From Methylobacillus caricis (GTDB lineage: Bacteria > Pseudomonadota > Gammaproteobacteria > Burkholderiales > Methylophilaceae): a stretch of 64,000 nt of DNA. The notes under the pieces were generated by a model. That model saw only the letters and a list, made by a program, of their open reading frames with translations, was not told where the DNA came from and searched no databases. Below, one piece after another: positions 4,194 through 38,446 of this stretch (its first letter is position 1; each line of letters opens with the position of its first letter). The position numbers and the translations under genes were made by a program. The stretch covers positions 124,001-188,000 of the forward strand of contig NZ_JAJAVD010000004.1 of NCBI RefSeq assembly GCF_020532705.1, in the 5' to 3' direction.

Positions 4194-4239
4194 TTAATTG
4201 TCGAAAAAATCTGCATTTTCAGCATAATACCGCCTGAAA

Positions 4240-33058: not shown

Positions 33059-33076
33059 TTTTATTTGCACTCAAGG

Positions 33077-33096
33077 CATATTTATATTTAAATATG
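33077..33096. promoter_or_regulatory. Dyad upstream of argA, candidate operator
   Basis: CATATTTA and TAAATATG are perfectly inverted around TATT, about 40 bases before the argA start. A TACAAT that could be a -10 lies at 33117-33122, so the dyad would cover the -35 zone. This fits an operator for a small HTH regulator. Confidence 0.4.
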
Positions 33097-33136
33097 TCCT
33101 AAAAGCAGCAACCCCTTACAATACCGGATTCTTGCC

Positions 33137-34702
33137 ATGTCCCTAGGTAGTGCCATTCGTAAACGCCGCAAGGCACTCAATATGACCCTGCAAGAGCTGG
33201 CACGCAAAGTAGATGCGAACAGCGGCAACCTGTCCCGTATTGAGCGCGGATCGCAAGGCGTGTCAGAAAGCATGTTGCACAAGCTTTGCAATGCACTGGA
33301 TTGCAGTGCCGCCTTTCTTTACGCTCAAAGCGAGAGCGAGTCAGGCAAGTCCACCTCGACATCACGGCTAACCCTGCAGCAACCACAGGAGTTCGTTCGC
33401 TGGTTTCGTGCGGCAGCACCTTACATCCATGCATTTGGCGGGCGCACCTTTGTCATTGCATTTGGTGGCGAGGTTGTCGATGACGGACAGTTCGTCACCC
33501 TTTCGCATGACCTGAACCTGCTTGCCAGCCTGGAAGTAAGGTTAGTGCTGGTACATGGCTCACGTCCGCAAATTGAAAGCCGCCTGAAGCGTGCCAAAAT
33601 CAAGACCCATCTGGTGAATGGCCTGCGCGTCACCGATGACGAGGCCATGGAGGCAGTCAAGGAAGCCAATGGCGCAGTACGTGTTGAAATAGAATCCCTG
33701 CTTTCCATGGGGCTTATCAACTCGCCGATGGCGGGGGCGGATATCCGTGTAGCCAGCGGTAATTTCGTTACCGCCAAGCCACTGGGAGTGAGAGACGGGG
33801 TAGACTTGCAGCATACCGGCGAAGTACGAAAGGTAGATGCCATCGGCATCCAAAAGCGGCTGGACGATGGCGAGCTGGTACTGCTCTCGCCGCTAGGGTA
33901 CTCCCCCACCGGCGAGGTATTCAACCTGACACTGGAGGATGTGGCAACCAGCGCTGCCATTGCACTTGACGCAGATAAATTGATTTTCCTGATGGACTCT
34001 TCCGGGGTTCACAATATTCGTGGGGAATTGTTACGGGAAATGACGGCTGACAAAGCCAAGAATCTGTTGCGCCATAGCGAGAACAATGGCGGACAGAATA
34101 TTACGGAAGATGAACTTTATTACCTTCCCGCAGCCGTCCGCGCCTGTGACCAGGGCGTCGCCCGCACGCACCTGATCAGCCGCCATACCGATGGCGCCAT
34201 CCTGCAGGAGCTCTTCACCCATGACGGCATAGGCACCATGGTGACAGAGGCCTCGCTGGAAGCCATGCGCAAAGCCGATATCGGTGATGTCGGCGGTATA
34301 TTGCAACTGATAGAGCCGCTGGAGAACGAAGGCATACTGGTCAGACGCGGACGCGAACGCCTGGAAATGGAAATTGACCGGTTCCACGTCATGGAGCACG
34401 ACGGCAAGATCATCGGCTGTGCAGCGCTTTATCCCTTCCCTTCAGAAAAAACTGCAGAATTGGCGTGCATGGCGATTCACGCCGCATTTCGCCGTGGCGG
34501 GCGCGGTGACCGGCTGCTCAGCTATTGCGAGGAACAAGCGCGCGAACTCGGCTTGAAATCTGTATTTGTCCTGACCACTCGCACCGAACACTGGTTTCTT
34601 GAACGCGGCTTTACAGAAACTGATGTAGAGAAACTGCCAGGCGAAAAACAGAAGTTGTACAACCTGCAACGCCGTTCCAAGGTGTTCAGCAAACGCATCT
34701 GA
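33137..34702 (+). CDS. argA: N-acetylglutamate synthase with an N-terminal HTH domain
   Basis: ArgA makes N-acetylglutamate, the first step of arginine synthesis. Residues 1-62 form a complete XRE-type HTH: IRKRRKALNMTLQELARKVDANSGNLSRIERGSQ. A serine-rich linker (about 65-83) leads to the amino-acid-kinase-like domain (AFGGRTFVIAFGGEVVDDGQF, LVLVHGSRPQIESRL), the regulatory arginine-binding part of ArgA, and then the GNAT domain with AIHAAFRRGGRGDRLLSYCEEQA and WFLERGFTE. The linker holds no ATG, GTG or TTG from which a normal ArgA could start, so the fusion is encoded as one chain. Total 521 residues against about 440 for typical ArgA. A dyad lies in its promoter region. Confidence 0.9.
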   Translation: MSLGSAIRKRRKALNMTLQELARKVDANSGNLSRIERGSQGVSESMLHKLCNALDCSAAFLYAQSESESGKSTSTSRLTLQQPQEFVRWFRAAAPYIHAFGGRTFVIAFGGEVVDDGQFVTLSHDLNLLASLEVRLVLVHGSRPQIESRLKRAKIKTHLVNGLRVTDDEAMEAVKEANGAVRVEIESLLSMGLINSPMAGADIRVASGNFVTAKPLGVRDGVDLQHTGEVRKVDAIGIQKRLDDGELVLLSPLGYSPTGEVFNLTLEDVATSAAIALDADKLIFLMDSSGVHNIRGELLREMTADKAKNLLRHSENNGGQNITEDELYYLPAAVRACDQGVARTHLISRHTDGAILQELFTHDGIGTMVTEASLEAMRKADIGDVGGILQLIEPLENEGILVRRGRERLEMEIDRFHVMEHDGKIIGCAALYPFPSEKTAELACMAIHAAFRRGGRGDRLLSYCEEQARELGLKSVFVLTTRTEHWFLERGFTETDVEKLPGEKQKLYNLQRRSKVFSKRI

Positions 34703-34874: not shown

Positions 34875-35621
34875 ATGAAATTTGCTTACACCAAGGGCAT
34901 TCTTGTTCTAAGTCTGCTTGCCACAGCTTCGTTCGCTCAAGCAGCCACCGCCACCAGCGAATATTTCACCAATGTCGCAGATTCTCTTTCTACCGATGGC
35001 TTCAACCAATTGATTGCCACCCGTCTAGGTTCCGGCACAACTGGGGTAACAGCAATAACAAATGGGGTTGTCAGTAATGCCCCTGCTGGAGATGCAGAAC
35101 TTACTCGCACATCCGGCACAGCCTACCCTGCGAGTTTCGGTCTTTATGAATACATGGGCCCTTATTCTACATTTACCGTCTCGGATAGCACCGTGATTTC
35201 CGATCTGGGCTCCATCGTATTCCAGAGCCATGTCAACCCTGGTGGAAACTACTCTCTCGGTGGTGCAGGTGGTATTGATGCTGCAATTTCAGACGTATTC
35301 CTGAGCTTTAACGGCGGCAGCCAACTCCTTTCGGCTACTACTTTCAGCCTGACAGATGCCATTGACAACCCAGGCTCACCTTTCTATGACCCCAGCAATC
35401 CAGTTGTCGAGGCAGCAATTGGCTACTTCACATGGGATTTGAGCGGCATCAGTGACCCGATTACCTCTTATTCCATTTCTTTCGGTACCCATGCGCACAG
35501 CAGCATCATCGCATTCCAGGTTGACCAGATCGCTGCCGCAGTACCTGAGCCTTCTGCTTATGCATTAATGCTTGGCGGCTTGGCATTGGTTGGTTTCGCA
35601 GCGCGCCGCAAGAAAGGCTAA
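34875..35621 (+). CDS. PEP-CTERM sorted surface/secreted protein 2
   Basis: A 248-residue secreted protein: signal peptide MKFAYTKGILVLSLLATASFAQAA, a middle rich in Ser, Thr, Gly and Asn with beta-type repeats, and the C-terminal signal VPEPSAYALMLGGLALVGFAARRKKG. The start has AAGGGGA nine bases before it. It is not similar in its middle part to the first PEP-CTERM protein as far as I can read. It stands alone between argA and the leftward fhs gene; the Fur-like boxes upstream suggest iron-regulated expression. Confidence 0.9.
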   Translation: MKFAYTKGILVLSLLATASFAQAATATSEYFTNVADSLSTDGFNQLIATRLGSGTTGVTAITNGVVSNAPAGDAELTRTSGTAYPASFGLYEYMGPYSTFTVSDSTVISDLGSIVFQSHVNPGGNYSLGGAGGIDAAISDVFLSFNGGSQLLSATTFSLTDAIDNPGSPFYDPSNPVVEAAIGYFTWDLSGISDPITSYSISFGTHAHSSIIAFQVDQIAAAVPEPSAYALMLGGLALVGFAARRKKG

Positions 35622-35654
35622 GTCTAGTTAGGCTTCCTCACCACCTACCCCGGT

Positions 35655-35701
35655 GCGGCAATCTTCCCAGCAATAACGGGCAGGTTGCCGCTTTTATTTT
35701 A
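35655..35701. terminator. Terminator between PEP-CTERM gene 2 and fhs
   Basis: GCGGCAA and TTGCCGC pair, with an inner imperfect CCC/GGG extension, followed on the rightward strand by TTTTATTTTA. It serves the rightward gene; the leftward side has a weaker run. Confidence 0.65.
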
Positions 35702-35711
35702 TCTTCCCTTC

Positions 35712-37385
35712 CTAATATAGCCCAACTACGTGGCCGTTATCATCAATATCAATCCGGGTGGCGCAAGGTTCCTTGGGCAGGCCTGGCATGGTCATGATGT
35801 CATCACAGATCATCACTATAAACTCGGCTCCTGCGCATAAGCGCACTGCACGGACTGTCACCACGTGCTCGTGCGGCAAACCGCGCTGTGAGGCGTCGGT
35901 TGAGAAGGAATACTGGGTTTTCGCAATACAGATTGGATAATGTCCATATCCATCATCCTGTAGCTTGTCTATGATGGACCGGACTCGGCGCGATGCATGA
36001 ATATCACTGGCCCCGTAAATATTGGTCGCCACTTTACGTAACTTCTTCCAGAGATCATCTGCATCGTCATAGACATAACGCATGGCCGCACCTCGAGCTT
36101 CAACCAGCCTGACCACCTCCTTTGCAAGCTCGATTGCCCCCTCCCCGCCCTTGGCCCAGTGTTCAGCCAGCACAACCCTCACACCGAAGGGTTGCATATG
36201 GCGCTGCACCAAGGCTATCTCGGCATCAGTATCATGGCTGAACCGGTTAATCGCCACTACGCATGAAAGACCATAATGGCGAATAACATTTTCCACATGC
36301 TTTTCCAGATTGGCCATGCCTGCCTGCAAGGCTGGCAGATTTTCCTGGTCAAGTGCAGCCACGTCCACCCCGCCGTGATACTTGAGCGCACGCATGGTAG
36401 CCACCACGACACAGGCATCAGGCTTGAAGCCTGTTTTCCTGCACTTGATATCAATAAATTTTTCTGCGCCCAGATCAGCGCCAAAACCAGCTTCAGTCAC
36501 CACATAATCAGCCAGTTTGAGCGCCGTGCTAGTCGCAATCACAGAATTGCAACCGTGGGCAATATTGGCAAAAGGGCCGCCATGCAGGAATGCCGGAGTA
36601 TGTTCCAGCGTCTGCACCAGGTTGGGCTTGATCGCCTCCTTCAACAATACCGTCATGGCGCCATGTGCCTGCAAATGGCGCGCGGTAATTGCCTGTCCAT
36701 CATAGTTATATCCAATCACGATATTGCCCAGGCGCTCCCGTAAATCCTTCAGCGAAGTCGCCAGGCAAAACACTGCCATCACTTCCGAGGCCACGACAAT
36801 ATCAAATCCATCCTCGCGCGGCTGGCCATTGACCTTGCCACCCAAACCTATGACTACCTGGCGCAAGGCGCGATCATTCATATCCACCACCCGCTTCCAG
36901 CTCACCTGTCGAGGATCTATCCCCAGGGCATTCCCATGGTGTATATGATTGTCTATCATCGCGGCCAATAAGTTATGTGCAAGCGCAATGGCAGCAAAAT
37001 CACCTGTGAAATGAAGATTAATGTCTTCCATGGGCACCACTTGGGCGTAGCCCCCCCCGGCCGCCCCTCCCTTCATGCCAAATACAGGCCCCATAGAAGG
37101 CTCACGCAAGCACACTATTGTTGGCTGCCCTATCTTGTTCAATGCATCCCCAAGGCCGACCGTTGTAGTAGTCTTGCCTTCTCCTGCAGGGGTGGGACTG
37201 ATCGCCGTGACTAAAATCAACTTGCCATCAGGCCGGGACTGCAATTCCGGGTTCGCTGCCAGATCTATTTTGGCTTTATAGAGTCCATAATTCTCGATAG
37301 AGTCTTCACTGAGCCCGAGCCTGAGGGCAATATCTTTGATCCTTGACATACTCGCCTGCTGGGCAATCTCTATATCACTGGGCAT
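35712..37385 (-). CDS. fhs: Formate-tetrahydrofolate ligase
   Basis: Uses ATP to join formate to tetrahydrofolate, giving 10-formyl-THF for purine and formyl-methionine synthesis and, in methylotrophs, assimilation of formate carbon. The P-loop-like [19 protein letters not shown] lies about 70-88, with [37 protein letters not shown] and [15 protein letters not shown], all strongly conserved. Length 557 matches the standard enzyme. It is divergent from argB across 176 bases. Often named ftfL in methylotrophs. Confidence 0.97.

Positions 37386-37522: not shown

Positions 37523-38446
<924 letters not shown>

Follow-up and report, generated by a model that had tools for sequence, protein, structure and literature searches.

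In Methylobacillus caricis, ArgA carries an XRE-type DNA-binding domain (HTH) at its N-terminus, and the fused protein, here called HTH-ArgA, is probably a trigger enzyme that controls its own gene, arginine being the likely corepressor, a reading to which the comparisons of genes and promoters below lend a probability of roughly 0.7. The evidence points to control aimed at its own gene, together with argB where argB directly follows, and not at an ArgR-like regulon. The gene lies in a 64,000-nucleotide stretch of the genome (the window) for which an earlier, sequence-only reading had ventured that one chain could be both an enzyme and an arginine-responsive regulator. Both halves of that proposal have gained ground, the first through a classical ArgA domain order and the retention of the checked substrate- and arginine-site residues, the second, as far as regulation itself goes, through a promoter-specific operator that appears to track the recognition helix of the HTH; a response to arginine is suggested by the conserved arginine site and the published behaviour of N-acetylglutamate synthase (NAGS).

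The fused gene and its distribution

The fusion gene is a single open frame with an ATG start (window 33137–34702, + strand), encoding 521 aa followed by a stop codon, and its assignment draws on the frame, on domain matches and on family-wide conservation. The XRE-type HTH, residues 1–62 (33137–33322), is matched by the Pfam model HTH_3 at residues 7–60 (E 9.9e-10, 38.7 bits against a cut-off of 23) and comprises five helices in a predicted model (3–13, 18–25, 29–37, 44–53 and 58–67), among them the predicted recognition helix at residues 29–37, SGNLSRIER (33221–33247). It is followed by the linker SESESGKSTSTSR, rich in serine and variable between species (residues 63–82, 33323–33382; pLDDT <50 at 70–83), by the amino-acid-kinase-like (AAK) domain (residues 83–370, 33383–34246), which opens with an N-terminal helix at 83–100 and holds K281, E358 and the motif ELFTHDGIGT, and by the GNAT N-acetyltransferase domain (residues 371–521 plus stop, 34247–34702), all on the + strand. 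Pfam places AA_kinase at 104–348 and Acetyltransf_1 at 409–483, the NCBIfam model NF003641 for amino-acid N-acetyltransferase covers residues 81–520 (E 1.9e-209, 696 bits against a cut-off of 344), and TIGR01890 scores 591 against a cut-off of 203. These matches, above their cut-offs, bear out the earlier description of an XRE-type HTH joined through a serine-rich linker to a full ArgA. The predicted model, built with 20 sequences (mean pLDDT 83, pTM 0.67), arranges the chain as the HTH, an unstructured linker at 70–83, the helix at 83–100 and then AAK and GNAT; its top PDB match by E-value is the arginine-free NAGS of Neisseria gonorrhoeae (ngNAGS) 2r8v, with a target TM of 0.64, and the second is arginine-bound ngNAGS 3d2p, with a target TM of 0.91.

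The window's genome has one copy of ArgA, and the closest named relative is Methylobacillus gramineus (96%). An RNA methyltransferase gene of the RsmE type (Pfam match PF04452; 32321–33058, + strand) lies upstream, and argB, for acetylglutamate kinase (37562–38446, + strand), lies downstream beyond two further genes; read by eye, the gap at 34875–37385 holds a PEP-CTERM-like gene and an opposite-strand formate-tetrahydrofolate-ligase-like gene. In 13 of 23 genomes, by contrast, argB follows argA directly on the same strand, starting 24–178 bp beyond the point where the argA match stops. The window's genome also has a second argC-like gene (L230, G000:C1:266610-267629; 313 bits, above cut-off), of which the 22 further genomes searched showed no counterpart at the same threshold.

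An ArgA match is present in 146 of 150 Methylophilaceae genomes, one of which (G064) is ArgB-like only, leaving 145 with ArgA; the four genomes with no ArgA match are incomplete. The match begins at or before query residue 11 in 142 of the 145, and an uninterrupted HTH-ArgA reaching residue 477 or further was found in 139 of the 150, at identities from 96 down to ~40%. This family-wide, uninterrupted frame upholds the claim that both parts are made as a single chain and excludes the frameshift that the sequence-only reading had raised against itself. Among the remaining copies, that of G062 is broken, those of G091 and G105 are split across contigs, the late-starting matches of G007 and G118 have an HTH on inspection, and G033 has Ns at the N-terminal region and no readable HTH; no intact HTH-free ArgA was seen among the 145 genomes. 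The broken copy, in the draft genome of Methylobacillus glycogenes JCM 2850 (L069, G062:C27:305223-306781), is split near residue 175, either by a sequencing error or by a real lesion. The same earlier text had argued for one chain from the lack of a start codon in the linker, and this holds for the window, where in-frame ATG, GTG or TTG codons within codons 1–130 occur only at 1, 16, 42, 46 and 47; it is weak as a family rule, since 59 of 101 relatives have a possible start codon within or just past the linker, at unconserved positions.

The search across lineages that had been suggested finds the fusion Methylophilaceae-wide. None was seen outside the family among the matches listed for 399 genomes of the order, where HTH-free ArgA reaches up to 70% identity among those matches, and no clean fusion appeared in 369 genomes of the class searched with the N-terminal 135 residues, 107 of which matched, the window's own genome counted in. 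Two low-start matches (G712 and G671) were rejected as fusions for their in-frame stops and an extended match at 28–520 (G199) for its missing HTH. An HTH profile run against 330 frames from twenty long open frames gave a best E of 0.46; as a positive control, a profile from which the far lineages had been withheld recovered 32 of 32 of them, with a worst E of 3.7e-8. No report of an HTH-ArgA fusion was found in the open-licence full-text literature, and the term ‘DNA-binding’ occurs 0 times in a NAGS review (PMC4490483), in keeping with the claim that ArgA as known so far lacks such a domain.

ArgR (PF01316) was above cut-off in none of 100 family genomes, with two weak sub-cut-off matches, and in none of 60 genomes of the order, while 8 of 14 control genomes were positive; PF01316 matched neither the window's genome nor HTH-ArgA itself. 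A published survey reports ArgR as absent outside gammaproteobacteria (PMC5343134). Since the whole order sample is without ArgR, its absence does not single out the Methylophilaceae, nor does it mark the fusion as a replacement for ArgR.

In an alignment of 82 fused proteins (without L069, L075, L094, L095, L097, L125, L126, L129, duplicates and short proteins), K281, E358, T361, G364, G366 and T367 are identical in all 82, and ELFTHDGIGT fits the NAGS motif E-(L/I)-(F/M)-(T/S)-X-X-G-X-G-T (PMC4490483). The positions of ngNAGS R316 and C356 are R404 in 82/82 and C444 in 81/82 fused proteins, and that of R425 varies (R, K or N) whether or not the protein has an HTH. The arginine-site Lys and Glu are also present in 50 of 50 HTH-free ArgA, so that their conservation is not specific to DNA control. 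Against congeners, AAK and GNAT have dN/dS values of 0.01–0.05 at saturated dS.

Candidate operators in the argA promoter

Of 82 promoters of fused argA genes, 77 carry a 13-bp palindrome, TGY-N7-RCA, where dinucleotide shuffles give a mean of 9.8 and at most 17, and 55 carry at least two such sites (shuffle mean 0.58, largest 2), an enrichment that is partly selected because the pattern was chosen after viewing those promoters. In this first count, genes were taken as fused when the match started at or before residue 10 and as HTH-free when it started at residue 60 or later, leaving aside L069, L125, L126, L095, L129, the in-between L146, duplicates and upstreams shorter than 100 bp. At HTH-free argA the site occurs in 12 of 52 promoters (shuffle mean 4.9, largest of 50 shuffles 9), a slight and unexplained single-site excess, and it is doubled in none of the 52. 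Sixty more loci, 50 of them distinct, were fetched after the pattern had been chosen; the enlarged set, without duplicates and upstreams under 95 bp, has at least one site in 114 of 131 promoters and two in 87 (shuffle means 14.1 and 0.7). The later 50 promoters, free of pattern-choice bias yet from the same genera, have a site in 39 and two in 37, with shuffle means of 5.2 and 0.3. All these counts concern promoters related by descent, which are not independent; among 46 HTH clusters (80%), the majority of members have a site in 41, and at least half have two sites in 32.

Among the arginine promoters tested, the site is enriched only at argA. It stands before argC in 1 of 24 cases, argB in 2 of 23, argD in 3 of 23, argG in 2 of 23 and argF in none of 23, each below the shuffle mean and never doubled; argD, argF and argG lie together in 23 of 23 genomes, so the argD promoter is the one that counts. 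A double-operator model, whose alignment and sequences were selected for having the double site and whose invariant columns are thus so by construction, ranked the argA promoter as the best match in 19 of 21 genomes, at ≤150 candidates scored per genome, and in 9 of the 11 genomes outside model building, four of the held-out matches being weak (E 0.03–0.84). The exceptions are G014, with a better match elsewhere, and G002, with none. No ArgR-like regulon was found at argB, argC, argD, argF and argG or in this genome-wide double-site scan. Two further hits, one by metX/metW-like genes (L190) and one before a pilin-like gene (L192), both named by eye, look like chance. Separately, a lone site, TGTAAAATACGCA, stands 43 bp before argB in G016 (L259), where argA is ~6 kb away, and is perhaps a separately gained operator, or chance.

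The window's own promoter is a modest example of the pattern. Candidate operator 1, TGCACTCAAGGCA (33066–33078, + strand), fits TGY-N7-RCA with a matrix score of 11.9, and candidate operator 2, TGTCCTAAAAGCA (33095–33107, + strand), 29 bp away, is degenerate and scores only 5.8. The putative promoter (33065–33093, + strand), assigned from the family pattern as a −35-like TTGCAC, a 17-bp spacer and a −10-like TTAAAT, is weak here and clearer in relatives; a strict promoter scan of the window's argA upstream returned nothing. A perfect palindrome, CATATTTA-TATT-TAAATATG, was dismissed as the operator, as it is not common to relatives; its position coincides in part with the AT-rich spacer that separates the two shared sites. 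Better-scoring single sites occur elsewhere in the window, at 4212 and 39081. The former, TGCATTTTCAGCA (4212–4224), has the top score of the window, 19.4, and precedes by 33 bp an obgE-like gene that is followed by a proB-like gene (glutamate 5-kinase), both read by eye; it could be a second target or chance.

Across 76 double sites, taken at 29–31 bp spacing, 16–18 bp, and in 63 cases 17 bp, separate the TTG of operator 1 from a −10-like hexamer. This hexamer reads TAnnnT in 58, whereas shuffling the spacers gives 21.6, and operator 2 begins 0–3 bp past it. Adjacent sites are spaced mostly by 28–32 bp (78 cases), then by 50–52 bp (10) and 41–42 bp (9), and more rarely by 21–22 bp (5), 9 bp (3) and 39 bp (1). 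At a 10.5-bp period, the resultant is 0.87 for the 103 spacings of at least 13 bp and 0.78 for the 25 spacings outside 28–33 bp. The spacings of 41–42 and 50–52 bp occur in the small-genome groups g13 and g15, which suggests that these lineages keep roughly the same DNA face.

The recognition helix and the candidate operator

The recognition helix is the best-conserved stretch of the HTH, with L32 and E36 invariant in 82 proteins and N31, S33, R34 and I35 kept in 79–81 of them. The HTH has a dN/dS of ~0.04 in the three computable of four congener pairs and the linker one of 0.06–0.30 in three pairs, both at saturated dS. No linker column reaches 95% conservation in the 82 proteins, and linker length varies across relatives. 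Taken as a whole, the HTH has a mean majority of 0.68, below the 0.80 and 0.72 of the enzyme domains, and it is retained even in genomes of 1.2–1.4 Mb.

In the predicted model, residue 30 is the second position of the recognition helix, and the matching place in the 434 repressor contacts bases. Within the 131-promoter set, proteins with Gly at this residue have a site in 110 of 111 promoters and those with Ser in 4 of 20. With residues 30–31 as Gly-Asn, 110 of 111 promoters have a site and 87 of 111 have two; Ser-Asn goes with a site in 4 of 18 and never with two, and Ser-Ser with none in 2. The later promoters alone give 37 of 37 with a site for Gly-30 versus 2 of 13 for Ser-30. The sole Gly-30 promoter without a site belongs to L130, whose start is uncertain. 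On a quick tree of 101 proteins, with HTH columns included, the residue-30 class switches at least three times, and in independent pairs the site has either shifted with the class or stayed unchanged, never moving in the opposite direction. The link between helix and operator thus depends on two to three changes, too few for covariation to reach significance (sign test p 0.5).

The Ser-30 lineages have upstreams of their own kind. Most of those in clade g19 (L100, L101, L314–L324) are without TGY-N7-RCA and, read by eye, carry TTTGCA...ACC-like elements whose left halves are still separated by ~30 bp, so that the operator seems to have changed naturally to TTTGCA...ACC. The upstreams of the small-genome g15 lineages with Ser-30 (L155, L158, L161, L278–L280) are also without the site, and that of L161 has a different AT-rich palindrome, AGCAATTATT...AATAATTGCT, near the start.

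Proposed mechanism, alternatives and biological meaning

In NAGS, bound arginine is flanked by the end of the AAK domain on one side and the N-terminal helix on the other, and its binding shifts this helix and makes the ring wider and axially shorter; in ngNAGS the N-terminal helices interlace between adjoining subunits (PMC4490483). The enzyme of Escherichia coli is hexameric when arginine is present and forms an exchanging mixture when it is absent, while ngNAGS is hexameric either way (PMC5146650). On this published behaviour, and on the conservation of the arginine site, HTH-ArgA may be expected to respond to arginine. Its ArgA body would make N-acetylglutamate, bind arginine and assemble into a hexamer, as bacterial ArgA usually does. 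One flexible linker would separate the HTH from the arginine-site helix and, as this helix is interlaced between neighbouring subunits, the HTHs would be offered in pairs, each pair reading one TGY-N7-RCA palindrome. Two operators three (or about two, four or five) helical turns apart, and so facing the same side of the DNA, could then be bound by one hexamer. With operators covering the −35 and the start region, binding would block argA and any following argB; where argB comes directly after argA, self-repression would govern the first two steps. Arginine, which favours or tightens the hexamer, is the likely corepressor, and feedback inhibition and repression would both be driven from a single arginine site. 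The DNA binding, the oligomer, the repressive sign and the role of arginine are what we infer here.

The same operator evidence would fit a protein that represses its own promoter with arginine uninvolved, answering to protein amount or to another ligand such as glutamate or acetyl-CoA, and a long, variable linker of unconserved length could uncouple the HTH from the arginine-driven movement. We regard this as unlikely, given that the HTH adjoins the arginine-moved helix (predicted model; PMC4490483) and that a plain autorepressor needs no fusion to an arginine sensor in every sampled genus. That the operator belongs to a separate regulator of argA, leaving the HTH to protein contact, tethering or little role, is considerably less probable: covariation offers just two to three events in defence of the HTH, yet the doubled operator marks fused argA and is found at 0/52 HTH-free argA and at none of the other tested arg promoters, it fades where the recognition helix differs, and no other stretch of the HTH is as well conserved as that helix.

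An HTH of this type does not fix the sign of regulation, and HTH-ArgA might instead activate its promoter at low arginine. Operators on the −35 and the start region are in usual repressor positions, and with operator 1 on the former and operator 2 on the latter, activation appears very improbable. An artefact of assembly or sequencing, or two proteins with separate starts, would find an example in the broken draft gene of M. glycogenes JCM 2850, but the uninterrupted chain in 139/150 family genomes and the absence of a standard start in the window's linker, or of a conserved one in relatives, reduce its chance almost to nothing. Within the preferred reading of an arginine-responsive self-repressor, we advance a fuller picture tentatively, at somewhat below even odds: a hexameric, arginine-sensing ring with three HTH pairs would bridge DNA by gripping the argA promoter at two (or three) phased operators, one arginine event would both inhibit the enzyme and shut the gene, an ArgR-less order would gain a one-protein, nearly one-target circuit, and changes at a single residue of the recognition helix would have altered its DNA specificity on two or three occasions.

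Judged by the features tested, HTH-ArgA is classical ArgA apart from the added domain. The enzymes of N. gonorrhoeae, E. coli and Pseudomonas aeruginosa have the same full AAK and GNAT body and the arginine-site Lys and Glu that HTH-ArgA also keeps; at ~440 residues and two domains, they lack its ~80 extra N-terminal residues of HTH and linker. Trigger enzymes such as PutA, NadR, BirA and PepA (a term of Commichau and Stulke 2008, cited in PMC8249747) likewise combine an enzyme and a DNA-binding domain in one chain, and PutA, which according to the same source binds the putA-putP spacer only, acts at its own locus, as HTH-ArgA would. HTH-ArgA differs from them as a feedback-controlled first biosynthetic step and probably a hexamer, and no trigger enzyme made from NAGS was found in the open-licence full-text literature. 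BzdR, with an N-terminal XRE-type HTH, a linker and a shikimate-kinase-like domain (PMC3602430), shares the layout of DNA-binding domain, linker and enzyme-derived domain, and the HTH of HTH-ArgA weakly matches, below cut-off, the BzdR-type NCBIfam model NF006015. The C-terminal part of HTH-ArgA is AAK plus GNAT, which places it outside the BzdR subfamily, and whereas the enzyme domain of BzdR is inactive and binds benzoyl-CoA, HTH-ArgA retains the checked substrate- and arginine-site residues. ArgR gives the arginine-dependent repression of arginine synthesis that HTH-ArgA would also give, through a different domain (PF01316); it controls ~20 genes per genome in gammaproteobacteria (PMC5343134), whereas the site linked to HTH-ArgA is enriched only at argA among six arg promoters tested.

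HTH-ArgA offers a directly testable answer to how arginine synthesis could be controlled in an ArgR-less family that spans genomes of 1.2–1.4 Mb to Methylobacillus. If the reading is true, a classical feedback enzyme of arginine synthesis joins the trigger enzymes, and allosteric and transcriptional feedback use one common sensor. The natural variants of operator and helix provide a handle on the evolution of DNA-binding specificity and, in the engineering of methylotrophs, self-repression could offset extra argA.
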